Shown: in pieces, positions 11,566 to 28,406 of the stretch
Layout: each line of letters opens with the position of its first letter
How positions within the stretch are numbered: the first letter of the stretch is position 1
Assembly (NCBI RefSeq): GCF_015140455.1
Contig: NZ_AP024094.1
Location: 992,001 to 1,056,000 of the forward strand
DNA: 64,000 nucleotides
Direction: 5' to 3'
From: Jeongeupia sp. HS-3
Lineage (GTDB): Bacteria; Pseudomonadota; Gammaproteobacteria; Burkholderiales; Chitinibacteraceae
Notes under the pieces: model-generated
The model's input: the letters and a program-made list of their open reading frames with translations, nothing else
What the model was told of the DNA's origin: nothing
Database searches by the model: none
Made by a program: the position numbers and the translations under genes

Positions 11566-11655
11566 ATTGTCTGTGACTTTCCTGTTGAGGTGGTTGGCGA
11601 AAATTCTGTGTAAGAATGTAGGCTCGCCTTTGGGTTGTCTTGCAGGAAGCGCCGT

Positions 11656-14600
11656 ATGCCCTCGTTCCGAATCTTTGCTGGCGTCGTTTTGGCGTTGACC
11701 TTGCCGATGGCCGACGCCGCCGTAACGGTGTCGACCTTCTCGCCGCAGAACGAAGTGCGCCGTGTCGAGCAGATCCGCGCGACGTTCTCGGCGCCGATGG
11801 TGAAAATGGGCGATGTCTCCGCCGCCGCGCCGTTTACGGTGTCGTGCACGCTGCCCGGCAAGGGGCGCTGGATCGACGATCGCAGCTGGGTGATCGATCT
11901 CAGTGGCGATTTGCCGGCCGCAACCAGCTGCCGCTTTACACTCAAGCCCGGACTCAAAAGCGTCGACGGTGCGCCGGTTGAGGGCAAAAAAACGTTCCAG
12001 TTTTCGACCGGTGCCCTGGCGATCAGCGAGAGCTGGCCCGATCGCGGCGAAACGGTCGAGGAGGATCAGGCCTTCGTGCTGCGCTACAACGGCGCGCTTG
12101 CCGGCAAGCAACCGGCGCTGTTCTGCAAGATCGAAGGTTTGCCCGAGCGCGTGCCGGTGGCGCGTCTGCCGGCCGCCGATACCGCGAAGCTGGTTAAGCA
12201 TCTGGGCGAAGAAAAGAATGCGTCGGCGATCGAGGCGGTGCGTTGCGCACAACGCCTGCCCGCCGGTAAAAAGGTGGTGCTGGTGCAGCCGCGCGCCGAC
12301 AAGGCTGAAACCCGCGAATTCTCGGTGCGACCCGAATTCACCGCTTCATTTAGCTGTGCCCGCGAAAAAGCCAAGGCAGCGTGCATTCCGTTCAAGCCGG
12401 TGACGCTGTCGTTCAGCTCACCGGTGCCGCGCAAACTCGCCGACAAGATCCGCCTGGTGACTGCGGAGGGCGAGCGTGTGCCCGATCCTGATCGAGATGC
12501 ACGCGGCGATACCGTCGACTCGGTGCAGTTCAAACCGCCGTTTGCCGCGCTGGCTTCCTTGCAGCTTAAGTTGCCCGGTGGTTTCGAGGATGAGGCTGGG
12601 CGCAAGCTCGTCAATGCATCATCGTTTCCGCTGGCGTTCAAAATGGCCGATTATCCGCCGCTCGCCAAATTCGCCGCGGCGCCGTTTGGCATCATCGAGC
12701 TGGGAGACGATGCGGCGCTGCCGGTGACGCTGCGCAATGTCGAATCCGACCTCAAGGTCAGTGAGGTCAAGGTCGGCGTCGAGGCACTGAACGTGACCGA
12801 CGACAAGGGCATGATGCAGTGGCTGGGCAAGGTGCTGCGCTACGACGACTGGTCGATACCGCTGCCGCGTGGCGGCAAGACCGAGCAGGTGGAAACGCGC
12901 CGCTTGAGTCTGCTCAAGGGTGAGAAGGGTGCTAGCACGCTGCAACTGCCGGGCAAGCCCGACGCCAAGGGAAAATGGCCGTTCGAGGTGGTGGGGATTC
13001 CGCTGAAGGAGCCGGGCCTGCACGTGGTCGAGATCGAATCGCGGCTGCTGGGCAAGGCACTGCTCGGCGGCAGCAAGCCGATGTACGTGCGCACCGCGGT
13101 GCTGGTGACCAATCTGGCCGTACATTTCAAGCAAGGGCGCGACACTGCCGCCGTGTGGGTGACGACGCTCGATCGCGGTCAGCCTGTGCCGCAGGCCGAG
13201 GTCAGCGTTTACGACTGCAAGGGCGTTGCGCGCTGGCACGGCAAGACCGGCGCCAATGGCGTGGCGGCGATTCCGCAAGCACTGACCGAGCCCGAATGCG
13301 GCAATGCGCCGTTGTCGGGATTCTTCGTGACCGCGCGCAAGGTCGACGGCAAGGGGCGCACCGATGTGTCCTTCGTGCGTTCGAGCTGGAATCGCGGCAT
13401 TGAGTCGTGGCGCTTCCCGGTGCCGACCAACACCAGCGCCAGACCGTCGGTGCAGGCGCACTCGGTGCTCGACCGCATGTTGTTCCGCGCCGGCGAGACC
13501 GTCTCGATGAAGCACTACCTGCGGGTGGAAAGCTCGCAAGGCTTTGCCTTGCCCAAGCAAGCGCAGCTGCCTGACCAGCTGCGCATCGTCCACGAAGGCA
13601 GCGGCCAGGAATACCGGCAGGCGCTGACGTGGCGGCAGGGCCGCTACGCCGATTCGAGCTTCAAACTGCCCAAGGACGCCAAGCTTGGCGAATATTCGAT
13701 CGTGCTTGAAAAGGCCGCGAACAGTAGCGACGAGTACGGCAGCAACGGTTCGACCTATTACTCGGGCACGTTTCGGGTCGAGGAATTCCGCCTGCCGGTG
13801 ATGACCGGGGCGCTCTCTGTACCGGCCAAGGCCGGTATCGCGCCGAAGGATGTGCCGGTGAACGTGTCGCTGAGCTACGTCAACGGTGGCGCGGCCAAGG
13901 GTTTGCCGGTGCAGGTGTCGGCGATGCTGCGCGAGCGTTATGGCCGGCCCGATGGCTACGATGCTTATTCGTTCAGTCCGCCCGAGCGCAAACGCAGCGA
14001 GGCGCAGGCCTCGCTGGACGGCAAAATCGTGCTCGACAAGGCGGCGCTGACGCTCGACGCCAATGGCGGCGGCAAGGCGCAGGTCAAGGCGCTGCCGGCG
14101 ATCGATCGTGCCTACGATATGGTCACCGAGGCGACCTATCCCGATCCGAACGGCGAGATCCAGACGCTGTCACGAACGATCCCACTCTGGCCTGCGGCGG
14201 TGCAGGTCGGCGTGACGGTCGACGATTGGGTTTCGGTCGGGCGCGATGCCAAGCTCAAGGCGGTGGTGCTCGACACCGCCGGCAAGCCGGTCGCCGGTCG
14301 CAAAGTTGTGGTCAATGCGGTGCGTCATAGCTATCAATCGACGCGCAAGCGCCTCGTCGGTGGCTTCTACGCCTACGATCACGACGAGGAAATCGACGAT
14401 CTTGGCAAGGTTTGCAGTGGCAAAACCGACGCGCACGGGCTGGTGTTCTGCGATATCGCGCTCAAGGACGCCGGCAGCATCGAACTCATCGCCACTGCCG
14501 ACGACGGTATCGGCCATGAGGCGAGGGCGGCGCAAACGGTCTGGGTCAGCAAGCACGACGAGATGTGGTTCGACGTCGATAACAACGATCGCATCGACGT

Positions 14601-17334
14601 GCTCGCCGAAAAGGACAGCTACAAGCCCGGCGAGACGGCGCGTTTTCAGGTGCGCATGCCGTTCCGCAAGGCGACGGCCTGGGTGGCAATCGAGCGCGAA
14701 GGCGTGATCGAAACGCGGGTGGTCGAGCTTGAAGGCAAGTCGCCGATGATTGAGGTGCCGGTCAAGGCCGCGTGGGCGCCGAATGTGTATGTCTCGGTGC
14801 TCGCAGTACGCGGCCGCGTGCGCGATGTGCCGTGGTATTCGTTCTTCAGCTGGGGCTGGAAGACGCCGGGGCAATGGTGGGATGCATACTGGCACGAGGG
14901 CAAGGATTACCAGGCGCCGACGGCGATGGTCGATCTGGCCAAGCCGGCATTCAAGTATGGGCTGGCCGAAATCCGCGTCAACGAGGCCGGCCACAAGCTG
15001 GCGGTGACGGTTACGCCGGACAAGCCCGGCTACGGCGTGCGTGATACCGCGCATGTCAGCGTGCAGGTGAAGCTGCCCGACGGCAAGCCGGCGCCCGCCG
15101 GCACCGAGGTCGCATTCGCGGCAGTCGACGAGGCCTTGCTTGAGCTGCAGCCCAATTCGAGCTGGAATCTGCTCGAGGCAATGCTGCAACGGCGCAGCTA
15201 CGGCGTCGAAACGTCGACCGCGCAGCTTGAAGTCGTCGGCAAGCGTCATTACGGCCGCAAGGCCTTGCCTCCGGGCGGTGGTGGCGGTTTTGCGCCGACA
15301 CGAGAACTGTTCGACACCCTGCTGGTGTGGAATCCGAAGCTGGTACTCGGCGCCAACGGCACCGCAAAAATCGACGTGCCGATCAACGATGCGTTGACCA
15401 AGTTCCGCTTCGTTGCGATTGCCGACGTCGGTAGCGGCTATTTCGGCACCGGCAGCGCCAGCGTTGCGGTGACGCAGGATCTGCAGCTGACCTCCGGCTT
15501 TGCGCCGCTGGCGCGCGAGGGCGATCAGCTGCGCGCCTTGGCGACGCTGCGCAACGGCAGTACGCGGGCAATGACCGTGCAGGTCAGCGCGCAGGCCGAA
15601 GGCTTGCCGGCGTTGCCGGTTTCCAAGCTGGCGCTGCCTGCCGGCGAGTCGCGCGAGATCGTCTGGCCGATGACGGTGCCCGACGGCATCAAGGCGCTGC
15701 AATGGACACTGAGTGCGACCGAGGTCGGTGGCAAGGCGGTCGATAGGTTGAGCTTCGCGCAGCAGATCGAGCCGGCCGTGCCGGTGACGGTGCAGCAGGC
15801 GACGCTGCGTCGGCTTGATCCCGAGGCGAGCATTCCGATGGGGCTGCCGGCCGGTGCGCTGGCCGGGCGCGGCGGGGTCTCGGTGCAGTTGCAGGCCAGG
15901 CTCTCGGCCGAGCTGCCCGCGGTGCGGCGCTGGTTCAGCGAGTATCCGTACGCGTGCCTGGAGCAAAAGGCGTCGGTCGCGATTGGCCTGAGTGACAAGG
16001 CGCGCTGGGATACGCTGATGGCCGAGCTGCCGGTGTACCTCGATGCCGACGGGCTGGCCAATTACTTCCCGCCGCGTGAAGGCGATGCGGCTAGCGGCAG
16101 CGATACGCTCACCAGCTATCTGTTGGCGGTGTCGTCCGAGGCTGGCTGGGTGATTCCGGATGCGAGTCGCGAGAAGATGCTGCAGGGGCTGAGCCGCTTT
16201 GTCGAAGGCAAGCTCAAGCGCGATGCGTGGGCGCCGAAGTCCGACCTCGATGCTCGCCGGCTGACTGCGCTGGACAGTCTGGCGCGCTACGGTCGCGCCG
16301 AGCCACGGCAGTTGGCGGTGATGACGATACAGCCCAATACCTGGCCGACGGCGATGCTGATCGACTGGTTGTCGCTGCTTGAGCGACTGCCTAGCCTGCC
16401 CGAACGCAGCGCCAAAATCGCCGAGGCCGAGCAGTTGCTGCGCGGACGCCTGAGTTACCAGGGCACGCGACTGCAGTTCTCGACCGAGAAAGACGACGAC
16501 TGGTGGTGGATGATGCGCAGCGCCGACGTCAACGCCGCGCGCTTGCTGCTGGTGACGCGCAGCCTGCCGGGCTGGAAGGACGATATGCCGCGACTGCTGA
16601 ACGGACTTATCGGCCGGCAGACTCAGGGTACGTGGCGCACCACCACGGCCAACGTCTGGGGCTCGCTCGCGGTGGCGGCGTTTGCCAAGCAGTTCGATGC
16701 GACGCCGGTCGCCGGTGCGACCAAGGTCGCACTCGGTGATGCCAAGCGCGAACAGGCCTGGCCCGCCGCCGCGCCAGCGAAAATCGAACTGCCGTGGCCG
16801 GCTGGCGGCAAGGGCGTTCTGGCGCTGAAACACGATGGCGCCGGCTCGCCGTGGGCGACGGTGCAAGTCTCGGCCGCAGTGCCGCTCAAAACGCCGCTGG
16901 GTGCGGGGTACAAGGTCAAAAAAACCGTGACGGTGATCGAGCAAAAAATCGCCGGCCAGTACACCCGCGGGGATGTGCTGCGGGTACGGCTGGAGGTCGA
17001 CGCGCAAAGCGATATGACCTGGGTTGTGGTCGATGATCCGGTGCCGGCCGGGGCGAGCCTGTTCGGCGGTGGCCTGGGGCGCGATTCGGCCATTGCAGCG
17101 CAAGGTGAGCGCCGCGAGGGTGACGCATGGCCGGCGTACGAAGAGCGTCGCTTTGCCGGCTACCGTGCTTATTACGCCTACGTGCCGCGCGGCAGGTTGG
17201 CGGTCGAATACACCATGCGGCTCAATAGCGCCGGCAGTTTCAAACTGCCGCCGACGCGGGTCGAGGCGATGTATGCGCCCGATGTCTTCGGCGTGTTTTC
17301 GAATGCATCAATGAAGGTGACTGATGCGAAGTAG
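11656..17334 (+). CDS. Bacterial alpha-2-macroglobulin with thioester motif
   Basis: A 1,892-residue periplasmic protease-trapping protein. After a Sec signal peptide (hydrophobic FAGVVLALTLPMADAA) come macroglobulin-type beta domains. An alpha-2-macroglobulin block (FAPTRELFDTLLVWNPKL) is followed by the thioester site PYACLEQKASVAIGL, with the reactive Cys at about residue 1434, then the helical thioester domain and a receptor-like C-terminal domain. CLEQ is intact, so covalent trapping of proteases is expected, as in E. coli YfhM. Unlike YfhM no lipobox Cys follows the signal peptide, suggesting a soluble form. ATG 11656 has GGAAG upstream; a TTG at 11635 is less likely. It pairs with the PBP1C gene downstream. 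Confidence 0.93.
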   Translation: MPSFRIFAGVVLALTLPMADAAVTVSTFSPQNEVRRVEQIRATFSAPMVKMGDVSAAAPFTVSCTLPGKGRWIDDRSWVIDLSGDLPAATSCRFTLKPGLKSVDGAPVEGKKTFQFSTGALAISESWPDRGETVEEDQAFVLRYNGALAGKQPALFCKIEGLPERVPVARLPAADTAKLVKHLGEEKNASAIEAVRCAQRLPAGKKVVLVQPRADKAETREFSVRPEFTASFSCAREKAKAACIPFKPVTLSFSSPVPRKLADKIRLVTAEGERVPDPDRDARGDTVDSVQFKPPFAALASLQLKLPGGFEDEAGRKLVNASSFPLAFKMADYPPLAKFAAAPFGIIELGDDAALPVTLRNVESDLKVSEVKVGVEALNVTDDKGMMQWLGKVLRYDDWSIPLPRGGKTEQVETRRLSLLKGEKGASTLQLPGKPDAKGKWPFEVVGIPLKEPGLHVVEIESRLLGKALLGGSKPMYVRTAVLVTNLAVHFKQGRDTAAVWVTTLDRGQPVPQAEVSVYDCKGVARWHGKTGANGVAAIPQALTEPECGNAPLSGFFVTARKVDGKGRTDVSFVRSSWNRGIESWRFPVPTNTSARPSVQAHSVLDRMLFRAGETVSMKHYLRVESSQGFALPKQAQLPDQLRIVHEGSGQEYRQALTWRQGRYADSSFKLPKDAKLGEYSIVLEKAANSSDEYGSNGSTYYSGTFRVEEFRLPVMTGALSVPAKAGIAPKDVPVNVSLSYVNGGAAKGLPVQVSAMLRERYGRPDGYDAYSFSPPERKRSEAQASLDGKIVLDKAALTLDANGGGKAQVKALPAIDRAYDMVTEATYPDPNGEIQTLSRTIPLWPAAVQVGVTVDDWVSVGRDAKLKAVVLDTAGKPVAGRKVVVNAVRHSYQSTRKRLVGGFYAYDHDEEIDDLGKVCSGKTDAHGLVFCDIALKDAGSIELIATADDGIGHEARAAQTVWVSKHDEMWFDVDNNDRIDVLAEKDSYKPGETARFQVRMPFRKATAWVAIEREGVIETRVVELEGKSPMIEVPVKAAWAPNVYVSVLAVRGRVRDVPWYSFFSWGWKTPGQWWDAYWHEGKDYQAPTAMVDLAKPAFKYGLAEIRVNEAGHKLAVTVTPDKPGYGVRDTAHVSVQVKLPDGKPAPAGTEVAFAAVDEALLELQPNSSWNLLEAMLQRRSYGVETSTAQLEVVGKRHYGRKALPPGGGGGFAPTRELFDTLLVWNPKLVLGANGTAKIDVPINDALTKFRFVAIADVGSGYFGTGSASVAVTQDLQLTSGFAPLAREGDQLRALATLRNGSTRAMTVQVSAQAEGLPALPVSKLALPAGESREIVWPMTVPDGIKALQWTLSATEVGGKAVDRLSFAQQIEPAVPVTVQQATLRRLDPEASIPMGLPAGALAGRGGVSVQLQARLSAELPAVRRWFSEYPYACLEQKASVAIGLSDKARWDTLMAELPVYLDADGLANYFPPREGDAASGSDTLTSYLLAVSSEAGWVIPDASREKMLQGLSRFVEGKLKRDAWAPKSDLDARRLTALDSLARYGRAEPRQLAVMTIQPNTWPTAMLIDWLSLLERLPSLPERSAKIAEAEQLLRGRLSYQGTRLQFSTEKDDDWWWMMRSADVNAARLLLVTRSLPGWKDDMPRLLNGLIGRQTQGTWRTTTANVWGSLAVAAFAKQFDATPVAGATKVALGDAKREQAWPAAAPAKIELPWPAGGKGVLALKHDGAGSPWATVQVSAAVPLKTPLGAGYKVKKTVTVIEQKIAGQYTRGDVLRVRLEVDAQSDMTWVVVDDPVPAGASLFGGGLGRDSAIAAQGERREGDAWPAYEERRFAGYRAYYAYVPRGRLAVEYTMRLNSAGSFKLPPTRVEAMYAPDVFGVFSNASMKVTDAK

Positions 17335-17477
17335 AACCTATCCCACTAGGTGGCTATGCCTTCGCATTTTCCCCCCGTCCGATGCTCGGAGTCCTCATGG
17401 ACTTTATGTCCATTCCGGCTCCTGTGCTTCGGGCGGGAGCAAACTGCTTTGGCTCGCTCACCTATTGAGACAGGTTC
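17334..17477 (+). mobile_element. MITE-like palindromic element
   Basis: About 144 bp between the alpha-2-macroglobulin gene and pbpC. The two ends are imperfect inverted repeats: GAACCTATCCCACTAGGTGG on the left and, reverse-complemented, GAACCTGTCTCAATAGGTGA on the right (16 of 20 identical). The similarity continues inward, so the whole element folds as one long imperfect hairpin with a central ATGGAC-TTTAT-GTCCAT. Base composition is lower in GC than its surroundings. It encodes no protein of its own. I saw no obvious target duplication. It is a non-autonomous repeat by structure; its family is unknown to me. Confidence 0.7.
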
Positions 17478-17482
17478 GGTGG

Positions 17483-19606
17483 ATGGCGATGCTGGCAGCG
17501 ATGCCGGCGTGGGCCTTGCCGACGTTTAATGAAGTCAAGGCCGATTGGCGCTCGTCCGATGTGATGTTGCTGGATCGGCATGGCGTGCCGGTGCAGCGGG
17601 TTCGTGTCGATATGGCGCAGCGCTGCGGCGACTGGGTGACGCTGGGCGAAACGTCGCCAGCCTTGCGTCATGCGCTGGTGGTATCGGAAGACAAGCGCTT
17701 CTATGCGCACAGCGGCGTTGATTGGTCGGGCGTTGCGGCGGCGGCGTGGAGCAATGTATGGAACCGCCGTACCCGTGGCGCGTCGACGTTGACGATGCAG
17801 CTGGTCGGGCTGATCGACGAGGATCTGCGCCGTGATCAAGGCCGGCGCAGCTTTTGGCAAAAGGCCGGACAAAGCGTGTCGGCGCAGGTGCTGGAGAGGA
17901 GCTGGAGCAAGGCGCAGATTCTTGAGGCGTATCTGAATCTCGTCAGCTTTCGCGGTGAGCTGGTCGGCTTGAGTGCGATGTCGGCGGCCCTGTTCGGCAA
18001 ATTGCCTTCGGGGCTTGACGCGCGCGAGTCGGCGATTGCCGCGGCGTTGATCCGTGCGCCGAACGCCTCGCCTGATCGCGTTGCTGAGCGCGCCTGCGTC
18101 ATCCTCAAGGACATGAACGCGCGCGACAGCTGCGGCGGTCTGCGCGGCGAAACGCAGCTGGCGCTGGCGCGCAAGGGCGTCTCGGAGGCGCAGGCCGACT
18201 CGCTGGCGCCACATTTTGCCCGGCAAGTGCTGGCCGGCGCCAAGCCGGGGCAACGTGTCACCACGACGCTCGACGCTGGTTTGCAACGCTTTGCCACCCA
18301 AACGCTACGTCGGCACCTGCTTGAGCTGTCGCAGCGCAATGTGCAGGACGGTGCGGTGATCGTGTTCGATAACGCCAGCGGCGATGTGCTGGCATGGGTC
18401 GGGTCGAGCGGCGGGCTGTCGCGGGCGCGCGATGTCGATGCGGTCACCGCGCCGCGCCAGGCCGGCTCGACGCTGAAGCCTTTCCTGTTTCAGCTGGCGC
18501 TGGAAGGGCGCTGGTTGACCGCAGCATCGCTGCTCGACGATACGCCGATCGATCTGCAGACCGCCAGTGGCCTTTATGCACCGCAGAATTACGCGAAGGA
18601 TTTCAAGGGCCCGGTTTCGGTACGTACGGCGCTGGCGTCGTCGCTGAACGTGCCGGCGGTGCGCGCGGTCGAGATCGTTACACCGAACCGGCTGCGCGAA
18701 CGGCTGTACGCGCTCGGGCTGACGACGTTGTCCGAAAGCGGCGACTATTACGGTTACTCGCTGGCGCTGGGTGCCGCCGACGTGCGGCTGGTCGATCTGG
18801 CCAATGCCTATCGTGCGCTGGCCGACGGTGGCGCGTACTCGCCGGTTCGTTATCGCCCCGCTGCCAAGCCGCCCGTTTTGAAGGCCATCGCCGATCCGGC
18901 CAGCAGTTTTATCGTTGCGGATATATTGTCCGACCGCACCGCCAGATCGCGCACCTTCGGGCTGGAAAGCGCGCTGGCGACGCGCTACTGGAGTGCGGTG
19001 AAAACCGGTACCAGCAAGGATATGCGCGATAACTGGACGGTCGGCTTTTCGCGCCGTTACACCGTCGGCGTCTGGGTCGGCAATGCCAGCGGCGAGCCGA
19101 TGTGGGACATCTCCGGCATGCACGGCGCCGCGCCGGTGTGGCTGGCGGTGATGAATCGCGCGCAGCAACTGGGTGGCGTGCCGCAGGCGCCAAGAGCACC
19201 GCTTGGTGTCGTGGGCAAGCAAGTGGTTTTCGAGCGTGGGGTCGAGGCCACACGGCACGAGTGGTTCATCAAGGGAACCGTGCGCACCCAGGTTCGCGTC
19301 GCAGACGCATCGGATGCCCGTGTCATGCCGTCGCGCATCGTCAATCCGGTCGATGGCGCCATCTATGCGCTCGATCCGGATATTCCGCCGGCGAGTCAGC
19401 GTATTGTGTTCCGTGCCGAAGGCGTGACTGGTGCGACTTGGTGGCTGGATGGCCGCAAGCTCGGTGGTGGCGCCTCGCTCGGCTGGTTTCCATGGCCGGG
19501 CCGGCACGTTCTACAGTTGCGTGACGGCAAGGGTGCGGCCGTCGGCGAGGTGCGCTTTGAGGTTCGTGGCGCCACGGCCAAACAGGGTAGCAAACCACCG
19601 GCCTGA
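17483..19606 (+). CDS. pbpC: Penicillin-binding protein 1C
   Basis: A bifunctional peptidoglycan synthase of about 707 residues. The glycosyltransferase domain has EDKRFYAHSGVD and RGASTLTMQLVGL; the transpeptidase domain has the active serine in AGSTLKPFLFQ, SSLNVP and KTGTSKDMRDNW; a PBP1C-type C-terminal domain follows. The frame stays open upstream to 17324 through the inserted palindromic element, so the true start is uncertain: ATG 17483 gives MAMLAAMPAWALPTFNEV, a short hydrophobic leader, while TTG 17465 would add six residues. No good ribosome-binding site precedes either. The order alpha-2-macroglobulin then pbpC is conserved and links wall repair with protease defence. Confidence 0.93.
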   Translation: MAMLAAMPAWALPTFNEVKADWRSSDVMLLDRHGVPVQRVRVDMAQRCGDWVTLGETSPALRHALVVSEDKRFYAHSGVDWSGVAAAAWSNVWNRRTRGASTLTMQLVGLIDEDLRRDQGRRSFWQKAGQSVSAQVLERSWSKAQILEAYLNLVSFRGELVGLSAMSAALFGKLPSGLDARESAIAAALIRAPNASPDRVAERACVILKDMNARDSCGGLRGETQLALARKGVSEAQADSLAPHFARQVLAGAKPGQRVTTTLDAGLQRFATQTLRRHLLELSQRNVQDGAVIVFDNASGDVLAWVGSSGGLSRARDVDAVTAPRQAGSTLKPFLFQLALEGRWLTAASLLDDTPIDLQTASGLYAPQNYAKDFKGPVSVRTALASSLNVPAVRAVEIVTPNRLRERLYALGLTTLSESGDYYGYSLALGAADVRLVDLANAYRALADGGAYSPVRYRPAAKPPVLKAIADPASSFIVADILSDRTARSRTFGLESALATRYWSAVKTGTSKDMRDNWTVGFSRRYTVGVWVGNASGEPMWDISGMHGAAPVWLAVMNRAQQLGGVPQAPRAPLGVVGKQVVFERGVEATRHEWFIKGTVRTQVRVADASDARVMPSRIVNPVDGAIYALDPDIPPASQRIVFRAEGVTGATWWLDGRKLGGGASLGWFPWPGRHVLQLRDGKGAAVGEVRFEVRGATAKQGSKPPA

Positions 19607-28332: not shown

Positions 28333-28406
28333 TGGAGCGGGCGACGGGAATCGAACCCGTGTTCCGAGCTTGGGAAGCTAGTGTCTTACCATTAGACGAC
28401 GCCCGC
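28333..28406 (-). tRNA. tRNA-Gly (anticodon CCC)
   Basis: A 74-nt cloverleaf read on the minus strand including an encoded CCA. The acceptor stem GCGGGCG pairs with CGCCCGC; the T arm is ACGGG-TTCGATT-CCCGT; the anticodon loop TTCCCAA gives CCC, decoding GGG. The anticodon stem has one U-C mismatch at its second pair. The sequence closely resembles E. coli glyU. Confidence 0.93.

Follow-up and report, generated by a model that had tools for sequence, protein, structure and literature searches.

The A2M-pbpC junction and its insert

The window, a stretch of 64,000 nucleotides from Jeongeupia sp. HS-3 (G000), carries on its forward strand an alpha-2-macroglobulin (A2M) gene with a putative start (open reading frame as listed, 11635..17334) that ends in a TAG stop codon at 17332..17334. 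Pfam searches placed A2M domains upstream of the junction studied here and Transgly, Transpeptidase and BiPBP_C domains, which identify PbpC, downstream of it. The junction is occupied by a 144-bp near-palindromic dispersed repeat (17334..17477, + strand like all its parts) of a short type with a 114-nt core. Its left outer arm (AACCTATCCCACTA, 17335..17348) starts at the first base past the A2M stop codon and leads into the core, which is conserved in alignment A1 described below (GGTGGCTATGCC...GGCTCGCTCACC, 17349..17462). Within the core lies a central hairpin (GGAGTCCTCATGGAC...GTCCATTCCGGCTCC, 17388..17422), the portion common to distant families, and the right outer arm (TATTGAGACAGGTT, 17463..17476) is the partner strand of the left arm.

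A sequence-only reading had described inverted-repeat ends and one long RNA hairpin at 17334-17477, and both descriptions held with these coordinates. The outer 20 bases are identical at 16 of 20 positions, and the predicted RNA fold reaches -72.5 kcal/mol compared to -50.2 for shuffled sequences (z -5.17; 0 of 200 shuffles equal). A TIR-like pattern of this kind has 2 matches in the 64-kb window against 0.01 expected. An Rfam scan of the element gave nothing at gathering score; its best match, sX9, scored 19 bits against a cut-off of 44, and we rejected this identity as a weak match only. Elsewhere in the window, a tRNA gene at 28336-28406 (- strand) was the sole Rfam match.

The same reading took the element for a separator between the A2M stop codon and a pbpC start at 17483. 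Position 17334 is indeed the last base of the TAG codon, and 17477 lies 5 nt before the ATG at 17483..17485 (+), but this ATG is probably not the pbpC start. In Jeongeupia naejangsanensis (G002), a congener of the source genome, the insert is absent and A2M and pbpC overlap tightly, as had been supposed for relatives without it; the pbpC ATG there starts 11 nt ahead of where the A2M stop codon ends. This comparison places the native pbpC start at the ATG at 17324, before the element, which argues against a simple separator ahead of pbpC. From that ATG, which overlaps the A2M stop codon, the frame is open across the element into PbpC (17324..19606, +), and it is likewise open in G001. The predicted PbpC N-termini are MRS RTYPTRW...LLRQV RWMAMLAAMPAWALP in G000, MRS KTRPIRR...LLRQV FIGGALLAISPAWALP in G001, and MRSKWGVAVFALATLPAWALP in G002, where the element is missing. 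An open frame is by itself unremarkable, since the corresponding sense frame is open in 60 of 94 Jeongeupia elements. Nevertheless, pbpC probably still starts at 17324, with the element inside its reading frame, because a start at 17483 would give a very short signal peptide that would lack a charged head. The junction would then exemplify an insert that turns into the 5' coding sequence of an overlapping gene: PbpC would have acquired about 45 element-coded residues before its signal peptide, and its translation would still be coupled to the A2M stop codon while having to cross the hairpin. An effect of this hairpin on A2M and PbpC expression, as first proposed, is possible.

The A2M-pbpC junction is occupied at the same point, by a longer version, in G001. 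The A2M stop codon is TAG in G000 compared to TAA in two congeners, which fits an element that brings a leading G; judging from these sequences, the final G of 17332..17334 may have arrived with the insert. In a more distant genome (G024, L195), a divergent element of the superfamily occupies this junction too, immediately after the A2M stop codon and apparently as an independent insertion; by inspection, there is no element at the other 15 of 18 junctions.

Copies directly behind host stop codons in sense orientation

Further copies had been predicted for an inserted element, and these were present. We built alignment A1 from 56 copies and made model R1 from it. BLAST within the source genome returned 40 rows at E<=10, with other full-length copies 68-87% identical, and R1 returned 45 rows at E<1e-3, which correspond to 42 distinct places (three rows were the opposite strand of the same place). 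Neither of the two outcomes named beforehand as contrary to an insertion, a conserved single-copy spacer in all relatives or the lack of any further copy, occurred. R1 matched 37 of 40 family genomes (E<=1e-6), covering all 11 genera, and among 274 class genomes searched under stricter filters it matched 38, from 33 of 222 genera; at E<=0.001 there were 89 rows in G001 and 19 in G002. A 19-mer of the right arm occurred in 70 stretches of named genomes, mainly of Pseudogulbenkiania, Formivibrio, Jeongeupia, Andreprevotia and Silvimonas. Six viral contigs carried the 19-mer as well, and the anchor search listed no element in them; the phages and plasmids searched gave no match to the element. 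Distant members have the central hairpin in common and differ at their ends. Among them is the branch f46 (G068 and G214), whose copies are near-identical. Two arrangements of several copies were noticed: a tandem of two complete copies plus the right half of a third in Formivibrio citricus (L110:1193-1720), two of them trailed by a near-identical spacer, and a head-to-tail pair with common arm sequence in G001 (C1:2660273-2660560, L208).

The main regularity, overlooked in the sequence-only reading, is the position of the element directly behind stop codons. For the copy sets, about 60 of the roughly 85 places in G001 were retrieved, and short partial hits (L166, L169, L171) were excluded from the distant set. 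The stop-position count passed over copies flanked by <260 nt and used all 113 Jeongeupia, 59 of 62 other Neisseriales and 43 of 46 distant copies. At least four G002 copies were counted in both the Jeongeupia and Neisseriales sets (L053, L069, L071 and L091, the same as L258, L260, L259 and L268), and this touches the stop-position, flank-pairing, stop-usage/right-repeat and off-stop counts given here. Counted by open frames, the element started directly behind a sense stop codon in 95 of 113 Jeongeupia copies, 42 of 59 in other Neisseriales and 28 of 43 in distant genomes, compared to 8-10% in control windows. A separate dicodon gene caller also yielded 95 of 113 for Jeongeupia. The opposite element end fell at stops in 36, 25 and 20 copies of the three sets, with no comparable peak. 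About a dozen Jeongeupia copies stand at no stop, and 15 of 19 off-stop copies have no stop trinucleotide at the corresponding place; some copies (L219, L244, L270, L033, L050) are reversed and abut a stop by their right end. By inspection, the off-stop copy L212 and the f46 copy L374 each lie within another palindrome.

The stop codons abutted were TGA, TAA and TAG in 34, 31 and 11 of 76 long-arm copies and in 36, 36 and 8 of 80 Jeongeupia copies, whereas genome usage is 64%, 21% and 15%. Thus, TAA is enriched at elements, and TAG (8 of 80 compared to 15%) shows no significant depletion (p 0.25). The gene after the 95 stop-abutting elements was on the same strand in 72 cases and convergent in 23; genome-wide, these arrangements number 683 and 380. 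Finally, we placed 36 Jeongeupia copies on about 1.19 Mb of G002, where 19 loci read as empty and 18 of these 19 carry the host stop codon at the same place. The presence of the stop in element-free loci implies that it belongs to the host and that the element arrived behind it.

Covariation of the stem and its limit at the stop codon

The 50 pairs of the structure were paired in 88.1% of the cells of A1, compared to 76.6 in shuffled alignments; 36 of the 50 had changed on both sides (24.9 shuffled), and the covariation score was 0.336 (0.136 shuffled). None of 500 shuffles reached the paired share, the two-sided changes or the covariation score, and slid structures paired at 30-41%. Pairing continued through the flanks at 59-90% (n over 40), starting at the core and reaching the base next to the stop codon. 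From the stop codon onward it stayed near the level seen with shuffled partners, in 96 long-arm copies and, less smoothly, in 22 short-arm copies.

These stems could belong to a functional 3'UTR RNA, spread at random and retained solely at places where a sense hairpin comes right after a stop codon and would act on the terminating ribosome, mRNA decay or coupling to the next gene. Such selection would account for the sense orientation and exact stop position, for the strong covariation and for stems that finish exactly at the stop codon in long-arm and short-arm copies alike. The smaller stop-adjacent share in f46, whose copies are near-identical, than in Jeongeupia is consistent with it, and so is the stop-to-core spacing of 11-16 nt, which roughly matches the footprint of a terminating ribosome. 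However, the mismatches speak against a hairpin kept as sense RNA, which should favour G-U. At mostly Watson-Crick positions, G-T occurred 18 times in the arms and 16 times in the core, and A-C 28 and 34 times, so that A-C (62) exceeds G-U (34). Many other positions are fixed as non-Watson-Crick, such as T-C in 81 of 96 copies in the third pair beyond the core, and two exceptional positions have G-T in 52 and 25 of 56 copies. To these two we tentatively attribute the G-T surplus of Jeongeupia (G-T:A-C, 402:239) and Neisseriales (204:87) in a cruder whole-element tally, which gave 92:96 in other distant copies and 21:30 in f46; a tRNA control, too small to lean on, had 152 Watson-Crick, 9 G-T and 4 A-C pairs. 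Moreover, nearly every copy with an empty counterpart site in G002 already stands at a stop, and the neighbouring genes (72 of 95 on the same strand, 23 convergent) indicate no special gene context. We therefore regard retention as a 3'UTR RNA as unlikely.

A substrate of the integron attC or HUH (REP/IS200-type) kind, in which a folded single strand is recombined one way behind genes without target duplication, is still less probable. The fixed orientation of the Jeongeupia copies and their lack of duplication (below) fit such a substrate, as do the conserved mismatches and a slight bottom-strand tolerance of G-T. Against it, inspection of 76 copies found no GTTRRRY/RYYYAAC core sites at their ends, copies are scattered behind core genes and not in arrays, and f46 has 3-bp duplications. 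Nor do Y1_Tnp hits track copies (G001, 73 copies and 1 hit; G002, 19 and 0; G006, 26 and 0; G012, 15 and 0), and the carriers G002, G006, G007 and G012 gave no Y1_Tnp hit at E<=0.001. A weak Y1_Tnp-like frame of about 194 aa is present in the source genome (G000:C1:1804413-1804745, L367), and weak hits of 166-209 aa in several family genomes may represent a divergent group of RAYTs. A transcription terminator or ordinary conserved spacer, suggested by a hairpin at gene 3' ends, is very improbable and contradicted as a full account, since the element is multicopy, sits within an operon of overlapping genes and is missing from close relatives, most of 76 right flanks inspected have no T tract past the right arm, and the 72 same-strand and 23 convergent neighbours contradict an operon-end terminator.

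Targets, mobilization and known systems

The stop codon was repeated on the right side in only 1 of 76 long-arm copies of Jeongeupia and Neisseriales. A transposase with matching ends, which had been proposed as a check, was not found in 43 own-family genomes at <=3 mismatches, where the scan yielded nothing beyond element ends and isolated single matches; a transposon-like candidate partner was found in the distant branch f46 alone, in G068. In f46, an exact 3-nt duplication flanks 16 of 27 copies, compared to 27% of mismatched pairs. TNA stands at the left of 24 and at the right of 23 of 27 copies, with C before it in 21 and G after it in 24, giving a CTNAG target; TNA targeting is a habit of part of the IS5 family. 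Orientation is looser in this branch (of 29 copies, 15 at a sense stop and 4 at an antisense stop), and by reading, the middle base of the left TNA is a purine in about two thirds of its copies.

The candidate partner is a multicopy sequence (L402-L431) whose end, AGAGGCTGTGAAAAAATTG, nearly matches the element ends, AGAG[TCG]TTGTGAAAAAA. It contains an ATG-led frame with first codons MSKEPSLFPD and is broken at contig ends, its interior being absent from the assembly. The left end is preceded by TCA in 23 of 23 copies, and the right end by TGA in 7 of 7 rows, which implies one target (CTCAG/CTGAG) and one orientation relative to TGA. Miniature elements following this rule, if they do, would come to lie in sense orientation at TGA stops, and the f46 copies comply only partly. 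A 1.28-kb TIR pair in G068 (C49) was rejected as an IS, as what it encloses is an ordinary gene, flanked by a solo end on one side and an element on the other. In G068 and G214, the size of element-end pairs rises stepwise (about 145, 190, 210 and 255 bp), as though further segments had been added to one element, with about 64-86 element ends per strand and genome.

We consider it probable that the element is a MITE-like imperfect DNA palindrome, non-autonomous and moved in trans by a transposase, that was inserted behind the A2M stop codon. The data establish the insertion itself and its site; the kind of element is ordinary and its habit unusual. It is short and multicopy, has terminal inverted repeats and no transposase gene, and relatives have empty sites. 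A gene-less element of about 144 bp would have inserted in an ancestor of the present Jeongeupia species, through a transposase with a TNA or CTNAG target that takes a stop codon (TAA, TGA) as its target. The middle purine of TRA would set the orientation, the gene would be spared since its stop survives, and the stems would be conserved through a folded DNA strand and not through mRNA.

Several observations weaken the MITE-like reading. Duplication (16 of 27 copies in f46, 1 of 76 in Jeongeupia/Neisseriales) and a partner (a candidate in G068 for f46, none among the 43 own-family genomes) are missing in Jeongeupia, and TAG stops are used although TAG is not TNA. Intergenic TNA sites outnumber TAA/TGA stops by about 6 to 1, so that target choice alone predicts about 14% of copies at stops, half of them in sense if orientation is free; pure TNA targeting thus explains neither the share at stops nor the use of TAG. 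In addition, f46 orientation is less strict, and of the 6 distinct right ends of the candidate IS, just 2 coincide with the stop of a long frame. A bolder account, which we hold only tentatively and judge rather unlikely, is a family across much of the Gammaproteobacteria that is aimed in sense at the stops of genes through translation termination or a gene-end feature, and not just through TNA, with a DNA hairpin stem re-matched to host sequence as far as the stop codon and no further.

Small palindromic repeats are common at gene ends, and whether selection or targeting puts them there is an old question. This family is a sharp case, combining an exact stop position, a single orientation, empty sites in a sister species and arms that covary up to the stop codon, and its distant branch adds a partner-like IS with fixed orientation on CTCAG/CTGAG. 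Targeting and retention are separable by experiment here, and the stop-codon habit is unusual and worth testing. Our literature search, mostly at abstract level, found no description of the family, and prior publication is possible.

The integron attC site is likewise an imperfect palindrome behind a stop codon, with pairing conserved more than sequence. Its core sites, R'' RYYYAAC and R' GTTRRRY, did not appear at the 76 ends inspected, and the element lacks a cassette array and was inserted alone. ERIC/IRU resembles the element as a multicopy, non-coding, imperfect palindrome of about 127 bp that is open in several frames, and in E. coli (L177, L432-L437) it lies near behind stops at 3 of 4 distinct loci (ybhI, 0 nt; cusC, 5 nt; a racemase gene, 10 nt). 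In contrast to the element, either end of ERIC is used at the four E. coli loci and its position relative to the stop is not exact, and ERIC makes TA duplications according to PMC2759123. Homology with ERIC, suggested by eye, found no support from R1 (best overlap 1.8 bits, one ERIC locus tested).

GTAG/CGTC REPs and REPINs (PMC3733652, PMC3116915) are also palindromic and near 3' ends, and according to PMC3733652 GTAG REP ends often provide a TAG stop. Unlike the element, they are 20-40 bp units served by a Y1/RAYT enzyme, which does not track copy number here. Prokaryotic MITEs such as Correia/NEMIS, Nezha and, in 3' UTRs, QMITE2 (reviewed in PMC10969869) are short, gene-less and multicopy like the element, with inverted ends and an RNA hairpin. 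The element differs from known MITEs in its exact stop position, its fixed orientation, its arms that vary freely yet stay complementary, and its lack of duplication in Jeongeupia, whereas in f46 the likeness extends to target duplication and a partner-like IS.
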